64,000 bases of DNA from an uncultured Verrucomicrobiota bacterium. GTDB taxonomy: Bacteria; Verrucomicrobiota; Verrucomicrobiia; Opitutales; Opitutaceae. Every line of letters starts with the position of its first letter. The first letter of the stretch is position 1. Made by a program: the position numbers and the translations under genes. Shown here piece after piece: positions 1,250 through 63,404 of the stretch. The DNA lies in contig CAJXQX010000014.1 in NCBI GenBank assembly GCA_913058185.1, positions 1-64,000 of the forward strand. Direction: 5' to 3'. The notes beneath the pieces were generated by a model, which searched no databases, was not told the DNA's origin, and worked only from the letters and a program-made list of their open reading frames with translations.

Positions 1250-3694
1250 ATGCTTCGGCTCCTGTTACCTCCCAATCTTGCCACCACGGCCCCTCGCGAC
1301 GCGATTGGGGTAAAAATCGAGGTATATCTAAGCCTCCCTCCACCTCCTGAGGTGCTCCCCGCGCTCGCCGCCCTGCAGCGATTTGGTGCCGTCCCCGCGC
1401 CGGTCATGTTTTTGCAGCTCACCCGGGAGCAACTGCGGGAGCTCACCACGCTACTAAAAGGCCAACAGCGCTTTGCCTTGGTCAATGATCCTCAGAAAAC
1501 GCTCCTCTGGATCGGACCCATCCTCCGTGGCGTCAGTGAACATCTGGGCGATCCCGAGCCCAAACCCGTCAAATCGGCCCAACCCGCACCTCCCTCCAAT
1601 CGTAAATCTAAAATCGTAAATCGTAATTCCGAAGATCTTGCTCCGATGCACGTCGACGGTTCCGCCAATTTCCTGGCTATCACCCTGCCCTCCCGCGAAT
1701 CGGTCGCTTACCGGTCCGCGCTCGATCTGCTTAAAGATCACGGATTCCGCCTCGAGCCTTCCAATCGCAAGTGGTGGCTTCGTGATCGCCATAAAACACT
1801 CAGCTTTCTTTCCCACCATCTGGATAGGCTCGAAAACGAATTCCACGCGGAGTTCACCGTCAACTTCGAGCGCAACACCGCCCAGATCGTCAGCGCCGGC
1901 GTATCGACCAAGATCACCAAATCCGGCGATGAATTCGAAGTGACCGTTGGTTTGGACACCGGCGCGATCTCCGGTGCGGAACTGACCTCCGCACTCACCA
2001 GCAATCGGGGTTATTTGGAGTCCGGCGACAAAATCTTCCTGATCGATCCGGCTCAAGCGGCCAAAATCGGCGACGTGCAAAGTGCCCTCGCCGGCGAACC
2101 CACCTCTATAGGCGGCAGCCGTCAGACTCACCGCGTAAGCGCAGCCCGCGCCGCCGAGGTTAATGATTTGCTCGAAGAACTTTCGCCCGGCTATAAATCA
2201 CCGGCCACCTGGCGGGAGCGCAGTCACGCCTTACGCGATCTCAGCACACTCGAATCCCTCAAGGTTCCCGCACCGGCCGGCGAATTCCTGCGACCCTATC
2301 AAAAACTGGGCGTCGCCTGGATGGCCTACCTCCATCGCCACAAATTGGGTGGTATCCTCGCGGATGAAATGGGATTGGGAAAAACGCTGCAGGCCCTCTC
2401 ACTCATCGCGGGACTGCGCGAATCCGAAATCGTAAATCGTAATTCGAAAAGCGAAAATAAGTCGGCCATGCCGACTCTCGTCGTCGCTCCCGCCTCATTG
2501 GTAGAAAACTGGCGCCGGGAAGCCGTCCGATTCACGCCGCAACTCCGCGTATTCGTCCACCATGGGGCGTCCCGCTTGGATTCTTCAGGCAACGTAAACG
2601 AACACGATCTGATCCTCACATCTTACGCGACCTTGGCCAATGATCGCGGTCTCTTCGCCAATGCCGACTGGCGCTGCGTCATCGCCGATGAAGCCCAGCA
2701 CATCAAGAATCGTCGCACCAGAAACGCGAAAGCCCTGCGCGCGCTCTCCGCCCAATCAAGATTTCTCCTCACCGGCACCCCACTCGAGAACTCCCTCAAC
2801 GACTTGCGCTCACTTTTCGAGTTCCTGCTCCCCGGATTCCTCAAAGAACTTCCCACCGGCCTGCGCGGCGACGAACGCAATTGGCACGACGACCGGCTGC
2901 GCTCCCAAACGGCGTCCTATATCCTGCGCCGCACCAAGGTGGCGGTGGCCCCTGAACTTCCCGAAAAAATCGAACAAGTCATCTACTGCGAACAGCCGCC
3001 CGAACAGGCCGCGCTTTACCGCCGCACGCAGGAAACCAGCGAACGCTCGCTCCTCGAGATGGAAACCAAGGACGTCAATCAAGGTTCCATCCGGATGGCG
3101 ACGCTCACCCAACTGTTGCGCTTGCGCCAAGTGTGTTGCGACCCACGGCTGGTCCAACCCTCCGCTCCGGCTATTTGGTCTAGCAAACTCGCTGCCTTCC
3201 GCGAGCTCATGGACGAAATTTCGGACGAAGGACACCGCGTCTTGGTGTTTTCTCAATTCACCAGCCTGCTCGCTCTGCTGCGGGAGGAACTCGATGCCTC
3301 GGGCACGGCCTACGCCTATCTCGATGGCTCAATGACCCCGGCCAAACGTCAGGCGGCCGTCGATCGCTTCCAAAACGACGATCAAATTCCGGTCTTCCTC
3401 CTGTCGCTCAAGGCGGGTGGCACCGGTCTCAATCTCACCGGAGCGGACACGGTCATCCACTTCGACCCCTGGTGGAACCCCGCCGTGGAGGCCCAGGCGA
3501 CGGATCGAGCGCATCGCATTGGCCAGACCCGAGTGGTCACGAGCTACAAGCTGATTTGCAGTGGAAGTGTGGAAGAAAAAGTGCTCGGATTGCAGGAAAC
3601 CAAGCGGGCCCTTTTGGCCGATGTTTTCGAGGCGAGTGACGCTGCCTCCGCCAAATTGGAACTCTCCGACCTGCGCGACCTGCTCAGAGACTGA
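1250..3694 (+). CDS. SNF2/Rad54-family DEAD/DEAH box helicase
   Basis: This 814-residue SF2 ATPase has an N-terminal ~330 residues of unknown fold, then the SNF2 core. Visible motifs are RPYQKLGVAWM (from about 347), Walker A DEMGLGKT (about 371-378), DEAQ Walker B (about 479), LTGTPLENSLNDL, and a C-terminal helicase lobe with FSQFTSLL, LDGSM, GGTGLNLTGAD and QATDRAHRIGQ. Family members translocate on double-stranded DNA and remodel protein-DNA complexes; the cellular role of bacterial stand-alone members is not settled. The protein contains the peptide IVNRNS twice (near residues 122 and 394), encoded by an identical 19-bp repeat. The second copy lies in a short insertion between motif I and motif Ia. 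No SWIM zinc finger is seen. The start ATG at 1250 is the first in frame. Confidence 0.93.
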   Translation: MLRLLLPPNLATTAPRDAIGVKIEVYLSLPPPPEVLPALAALQRFGAVPAPVMFLQLTREQLRELTTLLKGQQRFALVNDPQKTLLWIGPILRGVSEHLGDPEPKPVKSAQPAPPSNRKSKIVNRNSEDLAPMHVDGSANFLAITLPSRESVAYRSALDLLKDHGFRLEPSNRKWWLRDRHKTLSFLSHHLDRLENEFHAEFTVNFERNTAQIVSAGVSTKITKSGDEFEVTVGLDTGAISGAELTSALTSNRGYLESGDKIFLIDPAQAAKIGDVQSALAGEPTSIGGSRQTHRVSAARAAEVNDLLEELSPGYKSPATWRERSHALRDLSTLESLKVPAPAGEFLRPYQKLGVAWMAYLHRHKLGGILADEMGLGKTLQALSLIAGLRESEIVNRNSKSENKSAMPTLVVAPASLVENWRREAVRFTPQLRVFVHHGASRLDSSGNVNEHDLILTSYATLANDRGLFANADWRCVIADEAQHIKNRRTRNAKALRALSAQSRFLLTGTPLENSLNDLRSLFEFLLPGFLKELPTGLRGDERNWHDDRLRSQTASYILRRTKVAVAPELPEKIEQVIYCEQPPEQAALYRRTQETSERSLLEMETKDVNQGSIRMATLTQLLRLRQVCCDPRLVQPSAPAIWSSKLAAFRELMDEISDEGHRVLVFSQFTSLLALLREELDASGTAYAYLDGSMTPAKRQAAVDRFQNDDQIPVFLLSLKAGGTGLNLTGADTVIHFDPWWNPAVEAQATDRAHRIGQTRVVTSYKLICSGSVEEKVLGLQETKRALLADVFEASDAASAKLELSDLRDLLRD
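1598..1633 (+). repeat. Short AATCGTAA-type repeat inside the helicase gene, copy 1
   Basis: A run built from ATCGTAAATC units. It contains the 19-mer aaatcgtaaatcgtaattc (1611-1629), which recurs exactly at 2427-2445. It is read in frame as KIVNRNS and lies in a proline/serine-rich linker of the N-terminal region. Confidence 0.75.
2427..2445 (+). repeat. Short AATCGTAA-type repeat inside the helicase gene, copy 2
   Basis: The same 19-mer as at 1611-1629, in the same reading frame (EIVNRNS). It is followed by a charged stretch (KSENKSAM) that lengthens the loop between Walker A and motif Ia of the SNF2 core. It looks like an insertion tolerated in a surface loop. Confidence 0.75.
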
Positions 3695-3749
3695 TAAAAA
3701 CCTATTGACGACACCACGCCGAATGCTTCCTCTCCCCATTTCTTCTGAC

Positions 3750-3825
3750 GGCGAGATAGCTCAGTTGGTAGAGCAGCGCACTGAAAATGCGCGTGTCCCC
3801 GGTTCGATTCCGGGTCTCGCCACCA
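3750..3825 (+). tRNA. tRNA-Phe (GAA)
   Basis: A 76-nt cloverleaf. The acceptor GGCGAGA pairs with TCTCGCC, and the D-arm contains AGCTCAGTTGGTAGAGC. The anticodon loop CTGAAAA has anticodon GAA, and the T-arm contains GGTTCGATTCC. The terminal CCA is encoded. It is followed at once by an intrinsic terminator. Confidence 0.97.
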
Positions 3826-3830
3826 TTTAG

Positions 3831-3865
3831 AAAAAAAACCGCTCCTTTATAGGGGCGGTTTTTTT
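3831..3865 (+). terminator. Rho-independent terminator of tRNA-Phe
   Basis: The stem CCGCTCC (3839-3845) pairs with GGGGCGG (3852-3858) with one G-T pair and a 6-nt loop. It is followed by a run of seven T and preceded by eight A, so it could also act on the other strand. Confidence 0.9.
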
Positions 3866-3887
3866 GGTTTACGGGACAATATCACGC

Positions 3888-4006
3888 GAAAAAGGGGTCA
3901 GGTCGCAAAAAAGTTCAATGGTGTCGTAGACAGAATGTCTCCTCGCTTCGCTCCTCGATTGTCGGCCTGCAGCCTCGGAATTCACTTTTTGCGACCTGTC
4001 CCCTTC
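3888..4006. repeat. REPIN/MITE-like inverted repeat element
   Basis: Two arms of about 22-25 bp face each other. Left, AAAAGGGGTCAGGTCGCAAA continues into AA. Right, read on the minus strand, it is GGAAGGGGACAGGTCGCAAA continuing into AA. The core AGGTCGCAAAAA is identical (3900-3911 and 3986-3997). About 74 bp lie between the cores and contain a small AGACA/TGTCT hairpin. It has no ORF. Such paired REPs are known to be moved in trans by REP-associated tyrosine transposases, and one is encoded at 61864-62859. Bases similar to both arms (TGACCCCTTTTTC and CCTGTCCCTTTTT) occur just upstream of that gene. Confidence 0.7.
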
Positions 4007-4095
4007 CCCCAGGCCGTAAGTCCACGAGTCACATCGTCCACGCCCACCCCACATCCTTGCCCGAAAATCGGCGGCGCGGGGCAATGCGAGTTTGC

Positions 4096-4101
4096 TAGAA
4101 T
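4096..4101 (+). promoter_or_regulatory. Possible -10 box of ada
   Basis: TAGAAT ends only 6 nt before the ATG at 4108. If it is used, the mRNA would be leaderless, or translation would start at the in-frame ATG at 4135 or 4171. No convincing -35 box was found. Confidence 0.35.
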
Positions 4102-4107
4102 GGGCGC

Positions 4108-4527
4108 ATGACTTTGATCCTCGAAACCACACCTATGTCCGTTCCGCACCGCTTACCTTCCGCATCTACCATGACGCAGGCGTTCTATGATCGGGATGAG
4201 TCAGCGGAGGGAATCTTCATCGTGGGCGTAAAAACCACGGGCATCTTCTGCCGTCCAACCTGCAAGGCCCGTAAACCCAAGCCGGAGAATATTTCTTTCT
4301 ATCCTGATGCCACGGCGGCGCTGCACGACGGATTCCGTCCCTGTAAGCTCTGTGAGCCGCTCGACTCCACCCTTCCGCCTCCCCCCCTCGTGCTGAAGTT
4401 GCGCGAAGCCATTGAAGAAGAGCCGACCCGTCGTATCACCGAACAAAATCTTACTGATCGCGGGATCGATCCCTCTACCGCTCGGCGCCAATTTCGCCGT
4501 TACTATGGTATGACCTTCCATGCTTAA
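4108..4527 (+). pseudogene. ada: Ada DNA methyltransferase, N-terminal fragment (gene split by TAA)
   Basis: The first 139 codons of an Ada protein. The methylphosphotriester-acceptor domain is intact, with the four zinc cysteines in FCRPTC and PCKLC. It is followed by the first half of the AraC-type helix-turn-helix (LTDRGIDPSTARRQFRRYYG). The frame stops at TAA (4525-4527) in TFHA*ARARRMGMA, where Ada proteins normally have an aromatic residue (often Tyr) and continue. The same frame resumes without a shift, so a single base change (for example TAC to TAA) explains the break. Ada repairs methyl phosphotriesters and then activates its own regulon; cutting the HTH should abolish that switch. 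The start is uncertain (4108, 4135 or 4171). Confidence 0.85.
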
Positions 4528-4542
4528 GCCCGTGCCCGCCGC

Positions 4543-5208
4543 ATGGGCATGGCGTTAAAAAACATCGGCACGGGTGACCGCGTCACCGAGGCGCAGTTTG
4601 CCCAAGGATTCGAATCCGCGAGCGGTTTCCGTGATGCCGTGCAACGTTTGTTCGGGGCGCCGCCTAAAAGCGCCGCCGCCAACACGCGCCTACTCTTCGC
4701 CGAGCGCATCACGACCCCGCTAGGCCGCATACTCGCCGTCGCAGGCGACGACGGCCTCCATATTCTCGATTTCGTAGACCGCCGGGGATTGGAACGAAAA
4801 CTCATTGCCCTACGCCAACGCTTGAAGGTGACCGTCGTGCCCGGTTCGCATCCCGTTCTCACCGCCACCGCGGATCAGATGAAAGCTTATTTTGCGGGAG
4901 AGCGGACCGCTTTTGATCTGCCGCTTGCGCCCACCGGCTCCGCTTGGGAGCACGCTGCTTGGGATCACCTCAGATCCATTCCTCCTGGCACCACCGAGAG
5001 TTACGGCACTATGGCCAACGCGCTGGGTCGTCCTGGTGCCGCTCGCGCCGTGGGTCGCGCCAACGGCATGAACTACATTTCTATCATAATCCCCTGCCAT
5101 CGAGTCATCGCCGCCGATGGAAACCTCACCGGTTACGGGGGAGGACTTTGGCGCAAGCAATGGCTCCTAAGCCCCGAACAGAAATTGAAGGGCAACGCGC
5201 GTAAGTGA
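4543..5208 (+). pseudogene. ada: Ada C-terminal fragment: O6-methylguanine-DNA methyltransferase domain
   Basis: In frame with the fragment upstream and separated from it by one TAA and five codons. It carries the second half of the AraC-type domain (VTEAQFAQGFESASGFRDA) and a complete methyltransferase domain with the acceptor cysteine in PCHRVIAADG and the YG of ESYGTMA. If translation restarts at the ATG at 4543, the product (221 residues) could still act as an Ogt-like repair enzyme, so the locus may be a functional split rather than a dead gene. Its TGA overlaps the GTG start of the transporter gene downstream (GTGA). Confidence 0.85.
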
Positions 5209-61863: not shown

Positions 61864-62859
61864 CTAGCCGAAGGTCTTACTTCTCAGTCCCCGCAGGGTT
61901 GATAAGTCTCCCCAATCGGTGACTCGCGGAACGGGTCGAGGTGCAGTGCGAGTCCGTTTTCCGGTGAGTCTTTGGTAGGTGCCCAAGTGTTCTTGGACAA
62001 AGGCGTGCCCTCCCAACACGGCGCCATCGCTGAAATACCGCACCCGGCACCGCAGCACCTGGTGAAGAGGTAATCGGCCCTTCGCTTTGATCACCCTCTG
62101 CATAGCAGCGTCATCGATCTTTGCGCCATATTCTTTTGGCGCAGATCCCTTACCAAAGAGTGTTTCGCGGTAGGCGTCCTGGGTCCAGTCCCACCCATGT
62201 TTCCGACCACCCTCGATCAATTGAACAATCCCCTGCTGGGCTGGCTTGTGACCGGCCACGGCTTCGGCATAACCGCAAAAACGATAGTCTTTGGGATCGT
62301 TGACCAATCCTGCGCGAACCGGGTTCAGATCGATGTAAGCGGCCATGGTTCGCATGACGCCGGACGTAGCTTCAACTAACACACTCTTGAAGCGTTCCGC
62401 CCAGAGGGTGCCGTAGCGTTGATGACTACGGTTATACCAGACAGAGAAACGTTGTTTCACGAGTTTCATGAACTGCGAAAGATCGCCCATCATCGCGAGC
62501 TGCTGATTGCGCCATTCCTTCGCAGCATCACCGTTGGATTTGAGCTGAGATTGGATGACATCGAAGCGAGCCGTTTGGTATTTGGTGGGTTTGGGATAAA
62601 GAATCCGAAAACGCCGAACTAATTCAGCGTCGGTGACGGCGGGTTTCTGTGGGACACGCACCAGCACATGGAAGTGGTTGGACATGATGGCGTAGGTTAT
62701 GATTTCCAGACCGCAGTAGTCGGAGATCTGCCACAGTTGCTTCCGCAGCACCTCCTTGGCCACATCATCCAGCAACCGCTCCCCATTCACCGTGCGAGAC
62801 ATGCAGTGATACACCGCCTGCCCCTCCCCTGCATCCACCTTAATCCGTGCCTGTCTCAT
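61864..62859 (-). CDS. REP-associated tyrosine transposase (RAYT, Y1/HUH family)
   Basis: A 331-residue single-strand transposase. The HUH metal site is SNHFHVLVRVP, with the companion QAVYHCMSRTVN at the N-terminus, and the catalytic Tyr lies in MAAYIDLNPVRAGLV. Long C-terminal extensions beyond the IS200-like core are typical of RAYTs that act on REP sequences. Bases close to both arms of the REPIN at 3888-4006 occur just upstream (CCTGTCCCTTTTT near 62913 and TGACCCCTTTTTC near 63045). This suggests a RAYT with its REP partners. The protein looks intact. Confidence 0.92.
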   Translation of the reverse strand: MRQARIKVDAGEGQAVYHCMSRTVNGERLLDDVAKEVLRKQLWQISDYCGLEIITYAIMSNHFHVLVRVPQKPAVTDAELVRRFRILYPKPTKYQTARFDVIQSQLKSNGDAAKEWRNQQLAMMGDLSQFMKLVKQRFSVWYNRSHQRYGTLWAERFKSVLVEATSGVMRTMAAYIDLNPVRAGLVNDPKDYRFCGYAEAVAGHKPAQQGIVQLIEGGRKHGWDWTQDAYRETLFGKGSAPKEYGAKIDDAAMQRVIKAKGRLPLHQVLRCRVRYFSDGAVLGGHAFVQEHLGTYQRLTGKRTRTAPRPVPRVTDWGDLSTLRGLRSKTFG

Positions 62860-63404
62860 TCTCCTACAATCTGATCGGGATTTTCAGTCATTCTGTCAAG
62901 TGTTATTAACCTGTCCCTTTTTTAAAAGCCTCCGCAGGGAGCAACGCGACCGGAGAGCTGGCGCGGCGTGTGCCGCAGGGGCATGGTTGTTACGCGTTGG
63001 GTTTCAGATCCATCGCCCGCATCAATCTTTTTCCTGTGCGTTTGACCCCTTTTTCCCTACGGAAGGCCCCTCACCAAGCAGTTTGATTAAGGAATATATA
63101 CTGTCTTTATTAGAAGAAAAATCTAAAATTAGACTTTCATTATTAAATAACATCAAATGAGCATGATAGCCGTTATAATATGCCATTCTATCCATCACAA
63201 AACCTTCCTTACTGAGGACACGATACCGCTCATGGCTAAGCGTCCTCTCTCTCTCTTAATAAAAAAGAACGACCTACTCACTAAAGTCAAAATCCTGGAT
63301 GGATACTTTATTGTTATAGTATGTTTATTGAATAAGAAACTTAATAATATTAAAAACACTGAAATCGCAAAAAATTAACCTTAGGGCTCTCGTGATATTA
63401 TCGC
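62860..63404. other. REP-like and AT-rich region upstream of the RAYT
   Basis: 62900-63060 holds REP-like sequence. From about 63085 the base composition falls to strongly AT-rich, unlike the rest of the window. A minus-strand frame ending at 63022 reads MDRMAYYNGYHAHLMLFNNE from 63195 and is open upstream to a TAA near 63260. I do not recognise it, and it may be a fragment of a transferred gene. Plus-strand frames here are short and look accidental. Confidence 0.5.

Follow-up and report, generated by a model that had tools for sequence, protein, structure and literature searches.

The stretch at 3888-4006 of the window (the 64,000 nucleotides analysed here, which belong to contig C14 of genome G000; 4.09 Mb, 159 contigs) is, on balance, probably a REP- or REPIN-like non-autonomous element, one of a family of about 60 imperfect hairpins, the partner of which would be P0001, a TIRYT (a Y1 HUH transposase with flanking terminal inverted repeats) encoded on contig C15, and not the RAYT encoded in the window. 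The observations behind this assignment are the copy number of the element, a 12-base inverted match to the P0001 ends, a hairpin plan that covaries in another genus, the match of perfect end-dimers to the ends of resident TIRYTs and, within the genus, the confinement of the hairpins to the genomes with the closest P0001 homologues, located at one locus.

The arms of the window element match in inverted orientation over 20 bp with one mismatch (Table 1), and the 12-bp identical inverted cores noted in the original prediction are exact, at 3900-3911 on the forward strand and 3986-3997 on the reverse strand. The description of the element as gene-free DNA after tRNA-Phe was equally accurate; the other side is bounded by an ada-like ORF that starts near 4108. 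By reading, this ada-like gene (4108-5208) is interrupted in frame by a TAA at about 4525-4527, and its frame resumes in the ORF at 4543-5208. Folded as single-stranded DNA, the stretch forms one long hairpin (-23.8 kcal/mol, z -3.36), with 1 of 200 shuffles equally good. A 45-bp piece of the middle of the element recurs at C25:995-1039 (87%) and may be another repeat that sits within the loop of the hairpin.

Table 1. Features of the window and end-flanked Y1 transposase genes of G000
Feature	Position	Strand	Remark
tRNA-Phe (gaa)	3750..3825	+	upstream neighbour of the window element
Left arm AAGGGGTCAGGTCGCAAAAA	3892..3911	+	20-bp inverted arm
Variable middle of the window element	3912..3985	.	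between the arms
Right arm AAGGGGACAGGTCGCAAAAA	3986..4005	-	inverted; differs from the left arm at one base
Y1 transposase gene, 331 aa, subclass 2.3-like	61864..62859	-	proposed partner; pairing not supported
AAAAAAGGGACAGGTTAATAACAC	62900..62923	-	one-sided upstream motif of the window-RAYT family
GGGAAAAAGGGGTCAAAC	63040..63057	-	second likeness upstream of the window RAYT, orientation as the first
C3 Y1 transposase			inverted ends GGGGTCAGGCTTTGTAGTTTGTGGT
C60 Y1 transposase (gene with one TGA)			inverted ends GGGGTCAGACTTTGCAC
C15 Y1 transposase P0001			inverted ends GGGGTCAGGTCGTGTTT, 1009 bp apart

Copy counts, proposed in the original prediction as a check, came out in favour of repetition for the arms and the fold but not for the element as a whole: the 20-base arm, at up to three mismatches, has 34 sites in the 4.09 Mb of G000, often in inverted pairs, compared to 0 for the reversed control, whereas the complete 119 bp find a full-length match in G000 only in themselves, with the arms and the 45-bp middle piece recurring. 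The core AGGTCGCAAAAA alone (up to two mismatches) was discarded as a counting unit because it is too short, with 9 matches in the window against 6.2 expected. A covariance model built from 20 short G000 copies (R1) yielded 112 matches over both strands of this genome at E<=1, which correspond to 68 distinct sites, at least 61 of them at E<=0.01 (150 of 959 candidates scored); 59 of 63 sites could be recovered for reading, the other 4 lying outside the available loci or failing the end check. The family consensus ends read GGGGTCA.GTCG...CGAC.TGACCCC. By eye, the G000 sites that were read comprise hairpins with AAAAGTGAAC- or AAGTTTACT-type arms, among them the window copy, a shorter type of the form GGTCGTGACTAAATTGC...GCAATGCGTCTACGACC, and two elements (C1:93104 and C50:21213) in which the ends continue as in P0001. 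R1 is biased to GTCG arms; a bias-free pair pattern (GGGGTCA, 34-64 bases, TGACCCC) also lists mostly GTCG among its G000 rows. A further copy of the family is located at C14:64251-64309, 251 bases past the end of the window and beyond the region of the window RAYT.

Directly 3' of many G000 hairpins, arrays of an ACTTGNN heptamer are found (for example, C80:324-342, C31:5412-5430 and C36:526-544; the window element was left out of this flank reading), and these arrays often terminate in ACTTCGCG followed by a small hairpin. The pattern ACTTGNNACTTGNNACTTG, with overlaps counted, occurs 28 times in G000, 19 in G004, 18 in G005 and 3 in G002, and has 0 matches in G001, G003, G006 and G007.

G000 encodes six Y1_Tnp genes, of which three, on C3, C60 and C15, are flanked by inverted GGGG-type ends about 1 kb apart, and among these only the C15 gene, P0001, has ends identical to the hairpin ends over the first 12 bases. 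The prediction of a multi-copy REPIN-like palindrome whose ends resemble the ends of a Y1 (RAYT-type) transposase was upheld. P0001 retains NHYH, LFQ and YIHLNP (the HUH and Tyr motifs) and matches the E. coli TnpA-REP structure 4er8 (E 8e-4); the search for a Pfam HTH gave no match at E<=1. The predicted structure of a 72% homologue shows C-terminal helices and was set aside given its mean pLDDT of 49 (two-row alignment). P0001 fits the described TIRYT/TIRtron type, the ends of which carry GGGGWSAS. The nearest named carriers of P0001 homologues found are the Opitutaceae metagenome assemblies JABIRI01 (72%) and CAKZMS01 (61%).

Another candidate partner, the short DHLH-type RAYT at locus L056 (G000 C68), was rejected because its flanking GTAG-type repeats differ in sequence; they read GGTAGGGCGTGCTCGCCGAGC and have one orientation on both sides. 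Among the loci examined, exact copies of this repeat occur at L056 (2) and L171 (1), and none is present in the window at up to three mismatches; the contig end at L056 reads like what we take to be a Nextera adapter. A different inverted sequence, GGGGACAT.GGTAA, is located near further TIRYT genes of G000 and G003 (L051 1995-2043; L137 564, 3595).

The hairpin arms were compared with 45 sets of TIRYT ends (36 hand-picked and nine others), for G000 on the basis of 57 of the 59 read sites (exact GGGGTCA in 23 left and 36 right arms); the resulting scores are rankings rather than tests because the copies are related. For bases 8-14 of the G000 arms, the best fit is a tie between P0001 and its G005 homologue (5.48 of 7), with the sets of G005 C134, G004 and hairpin-free G001 (5.28) and of G003 (5.08) close behind; over bases 8-16, the G005 homologue ranks first (6.87 of 9) and P0001 joint fifth (5.87) of 90 rows. 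For the arms of G039, a genome of another genus of the same family, the resident C19 gene is best over bases 8-14 (4.76 of 7; next 4.37) and third over bases 8-16. The near-equal fit of the G001 and G003 sets and the lower ranks over bases 8-16 count against the assignment to a TIRYT. So do the divergence of the G000 hairpins from the P0001 ends past base 12 and the fact that G001 and G003 possess TIRYTs with the ends GGGGTCATGTCG yet no hairpins. Tight co-variation of the arms with the P0001 ends across species was looked for and not found, and the arms do not track the differing P0001 ends of G002, G004 and G007, which also counts against the assignment. In the window element, the match to a terminal inverted repeat extends over 12 bases only, and dimers of full-length repeats occur elsewhere, in G004, G005 and G039.

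These dimers of a resident TIRYT's own end (class A) are distinct from the imperfect hairpins (class B) that comprise most of the G000 copies, including the one in the window. In G005, class A is represented at C280:14259, with the ends of the P0001 homologue of that genome, and at C63:19189, beside its own TIRYT; the G004 dimers on C98, C385, C396, C426, C743 and C618 have the ends of the G004 P0001 homologue, matched by eye with 0-1 mismatches in some 22 bases (in C618, two mismatches between the arms). Of 68 pairs in a 1.01-Mb sample of G039, 17 are near-perfect in their arms, 49 belong to class B and 2 are others; five dimers of the sample match the ends of the resident C264 gene. The hairpin population of G039 consists of 53-bp elements, many of them flanked by CCGTTYG-type short repeats.

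The structure of class B was derived from 36 distinct 53-base rows obtained from the 68 G039 pairs (four turned by hand), in which the search pattern dictates the outer 7 pairs. Behind a 7-bp GGGGTCA stem and a 2x2 mismatch come two 5-bp helices separated by a one-base 3' bulge, then a C.A mismatch and a final 4 bp closed by a TTGG loop. In the 2x2 mismatch, which is mostly A.A/A.A, base 8 is paired in 0 and base 9 in 3 of the 36 rows. In this alignment (A4), 94.8% of 756 cells are paired compared to 83.8 in shuffled alignments, changes on both sides of a pair affect 73 cells (22.8 shuffled) and 11 of 21 pairs (6.4 shuffled), and none of 500 shuffles reaches the observed value of either pairing or double-sided changes. 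The covariation score is 0.258 versus 0.072 for shuffled alignments, and slid alignments attain at most 39.2% pairing and a score of 0.071. For G000, 11 of 12 distinct 67-base copies were aligned (the 56- and 57-base sets are without a common register), and these have a related plan in other letters: a 7-bp stem, a weakly paired base 8 (3/11), GTCG/CGAC paired in 11/11 and an extra 3' base near base 14/15 in all 11. Where both ends of a G000 copy are intact (21 copies), bases 8-9 are of the C.A type (ACG/ATG) in 11, paired (AGG/AGG) in 8 and AGG/ACG in 2, so that the base-8 mismatch is present in 13 of 21 and absent in 8 as well as in the window copy, which again counts against the TIRYT assignment. 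In the window copy, bases 8-9 are of the paired type, with both arms AGG, and the mismatch sits at base 5; the extra A is present in its right half, and R1 prefers the reverse strand (48.6 vs 39.8 bits).

Across the 95 genomes compared, P0001 homologues were detected in 52 (E<=1e-10), window-RAYT homologues in 27 (E<=1e-20) and R1 hairpins in six (E<=1e-5). This search employed stricter filters, with up to 52 candidates scored per genome, so that the numbers of matches on both strands are lower bounds: at least 49 in G000, 46 in G005, 45 in G004, 17 in G002, 13 in G007 and 1 in G039. Within the genus, hairpins are present in five of eight genomes, namely, those with the closest P0001 homologues (identities of 100, 72, 61, 58 and 58%, the 61% homologue with one in-frame TAA), whereas the hairpin-negative genomes have homologues of 54% (G003), 53% (G006, broken) and 52% (G001). 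The DNA flanking the P0001 locus is common to G000 and to G002, G004 and G005 on both sides and G007 on one side; in G001, G003 and G006, the match is limited to the gene. The P0001 homologue of G004 has an in-frame stop, yet this genome is rich in elements, another point against the TIRYT assignment. The upstream SNF2-like host gene is 87% identical to that of G000 in G005, 77% in G007, 75% in G002, 74% in G001, 73% in G003 and 70% in G006, with no close match in G004. Given that its identity is about the same in G002, which has hairpins, and in G001 and G003, which have none, inheritance within a clade could explain the pattern, and the presence of hairpins within the genus may stem from plain shared ancestry.

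The bias-free pattern finds at least three GGGGTCA...TGACCCC pairs in nine of the 95 genomes, all of which possess P0001 homologues (9/52 with a homologue vs 0/43 without, p=0.0036; by genus, 5/5 against 41/81, p=0.029), the three-pair cut having been set after the counts were known. With respect to the window RAYT, the corresponding numbers are 7/27 with and 2/68 without (p=0.0019) and, by genus, 3/5 against 21/81 (p=0.11); at the level of genomes, the association with end pairs is as strong for the window RAYT as it is for P0001, largely through one genus. G039 has 244 pairs (control 0) and G002 has 10 (1 control match), whereas two of the five pairs of G007 are unlike the hairpin family. 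The pairs of G021 (20), G067 (31) and G091 are counts only, and the parts of G021 and G067 examined contained no pairs.

An alternative explanation is that the hairpins belong to a lost or unrecognised transposase, or are orphans that share an ancient GGGGTCA end with the TIRYTs. This scenario accounts for the inner arms, which match no TIRYT end found, and for the inner hairpin sequence being much alike across the genus while the ends of P0001 vary from species to species. It is made an unlikely scenario by the 12 bases shared with P0001, the coexistence of the hairpins with perfect TIRYT end-dimers and the limit of one pair per genome among the 43 genomes that lack a P0001 homologue.

Mobility was examined in a 15-kb stretch of G000 (C60) with four copies. 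The copy at C60:7551 has a sequence-diverged counterpart at the corresponding position of G005; the tail flanking C60:20898 is retained in G005 without the hairpin; and at C60:10312 (in G005 and G007) and C60:18725 (in G007), the intergenic gaps are shorter and the flanks poorly alignable. Three of the four sites are without the hairpin in G005 and/or G007, with flanks that do not align cleanly, so that the comparison is one of turnover and not of a clean empty site, none of which was obtained in the relatives compared. Given the divergence of the copies and the site common to G000 and G005, recent movement is unsupported. In G001, G003 and G006, tRNA-Phe lies beside the same upstream gene as in G000 without the element, the matching DNA ending with the tRNA; in G002, G005 and G007, no tRNA was found in the 1.5 kb behind that gene.

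The shared C60:7551 copy, the position of the window copy behind a tRNA and the strong covariation would also suit non-mobile structured sites kept by selection (bidirectional terminators, mRNA-end stabilisers or protein-binding sites), the covariation then reflecting an RNA hairpin or the correction of quasipalindromes by template switching. Such sites appear improbable considering that the hairpin ends are transposase ends, that G005 keeps the tail and not the hairpin at C60:20898, that the hairpins are patchily present and that, in an Rfam scan of 3500-4400, no family except tRNA reached the gathering score.

The original prediction had paired the element with the window RAYT, pointing to sequences like both arms upstream of that gene. 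These likenesses are real: GAAAAAGGGGTCA (13 bases, from 63055 down) is common to the left arm with its flank and the upstream DNA, GGGACAGGT (9 bases, from 62917 down) is common to the right arm and the same DNA, and the shared 13-base word is above chance: 400 stretches of 241 bases drawn at random from the window gave 12 bases as the longest such word. Both likenesses point the same way, however, and no inverted arm-like copy was found behind the gene, which is accompanied by same-orientation upstream motifs only and not flanked by inverted REPs. The GAAAAAGGGGTCA likeness continues as GGGGTCAAACGC, resembling other TIRYT ends of G004 and G005, and a second likeness of this type was not reported upstream of the other window-RAYT homologues inspected. 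The window RAYT (motifs NHFH...YIDLNP) and its 92% copy on C18 each have a single upstream AAAAAAGGGACAGGTTAA. AGGGACAGGT is located upstream in 8 of the 9 family members inspected (two from G000) and was not seen in L120; no inverted exact copy is present within 500 bases downstream in any of the 9, the sole near-copy being a one-mismatch inverted GAGACAGGT downstream of L121. In sequence, the window RAYT resembles Quentin subclass 2.3, which is reported to be without REP-like structures (PMC6006769).

The distribution is also discordant, with three intact window-RAYT homologues (67-71%) in G001, which has no hairpins, and 20 end pairs in G021, which has no homologue at E<=1e-20; the association with the RAYT that the prediction anticipated holds across genomes (p=0.002), with co-occurrence in the five hairpin-positive genomes of the genus, and is weaker in the count by genus (p=0.11). 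Despite this co-occurrence and the above-chance likenesses, partnership by proximity is disfavoured on end sequences and distribution, and a REPIN of the window RAYT is a most improbable explanation, given the one-sided motif that continues differently, the discordant genomes and the presence in G000 of a TIRYT that matches better.

The substrate of Y1 enzymes of the IS200/IS605 and RAYT type is single-stranded DNA in folded form. Under the TIRYT assignment, we infer that P0001 acts on the hairpins: the enzyme would recognise the GGGGTCA end together with the imperfect stem on single-stranded DNA, would cut and rejoin the hairpin by Y1 chemistry and could thereby have spread the family, the window copy having presumably gained a second repeat in its loop later and being now a static relic. 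In E. coli, TnpA-REP activity is reported to depend on a mismatch of two bases in the stem of the REP (PMC8266576). The fixed-place mismatch behind the G039 end stem may be read in a comparable way, the GGGGTCA stem then taking the role of GTAG.

No description of an imperfect REP-like class that shares only the outer TIRYT end was found in the open-access literature searched, and an open-access search on GGGGTCAGG brought up, among the matches listed and by title, no bacterial repeats of such kind. We tentatively suggest that TIRYTs, for which REPs are reported to be lacking, might have a REP class of their own, consisting of polar imperfect hairpins with the GGGGTCA end of the transposase, a mismatch behind it and a 3' bulge, which would evolve separately in different genera, coexist with perfect end-dimers and, in one genus, be accompanied in many cases by ACTTGNN arrays as possible targets or co-travelling tails. 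If so, REP-associated and inverted-repeat-associated Y1 transposase systems, so far treated as separate, would be linked, the TIRYT group would gain a candidate substrate, single-stranded and of a structure open to testing, and a RAYT that shares a window with a palindromic repeat need not be the partner of that repeat.

REPINs, reportedly described by Bertels and Rainey in 2011, are short inverted-arm elements that a Y1 transposase would mobilise in trans; the elements described here are likewise short and have inverted arms, but these arms are not themselves REP hairpins. As in REPs, the hairpins are multi-copy and have a conserved mismatch or bulge (in G039, the 2x2 mismatch and the 3' bulge; in G000, the extra 3' base in 11 of 11 aligned copies and the base-8 mismatch in 13 of 21), whereas the foot of the hairpin carries the conserved end (AA)GGGGTCA and not a GTAG-type tetranucleotide. 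In comparison with E. coli REPs and group 2 RAYTs, the imperfect, polar, multi-copy hairpin with conserved mismatches forming a bulge is shared, and the differences are the missing GTAG foot, the stem that starts with GGGGTCA, the single long hairpin and the different RAYT subclass (PMC8266576). P0001 carries NHYH, FQ and YIHLNP, in agreement with the subclass 2.1 motifs NH[YF]H and Y[IV]HLNP. Most described TIRYTs fall into this subclass, and Quentin et al. (2018) report no REP-like sequences near subclass 2.1 genes, whereas here REP-like hairpins are dispersed in genomes carrying such genes (PMC6006769). The TIRYT/TIRtron systems, as outlined by Di Nocera et al. (2013), have repeats with GGGGWSAS that are dispersed singly, as dimers and in groups (PMC3733652). 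P0001, a Y1 gene flanked by inverted GGGGWSAS-type repeats, corresponds to that outline; the dispersed hairpins differ from it in that they share only the outer 7-12 bases with the gene ends and have an imperfect stem, and the perfect dimers form a separate class beside them.
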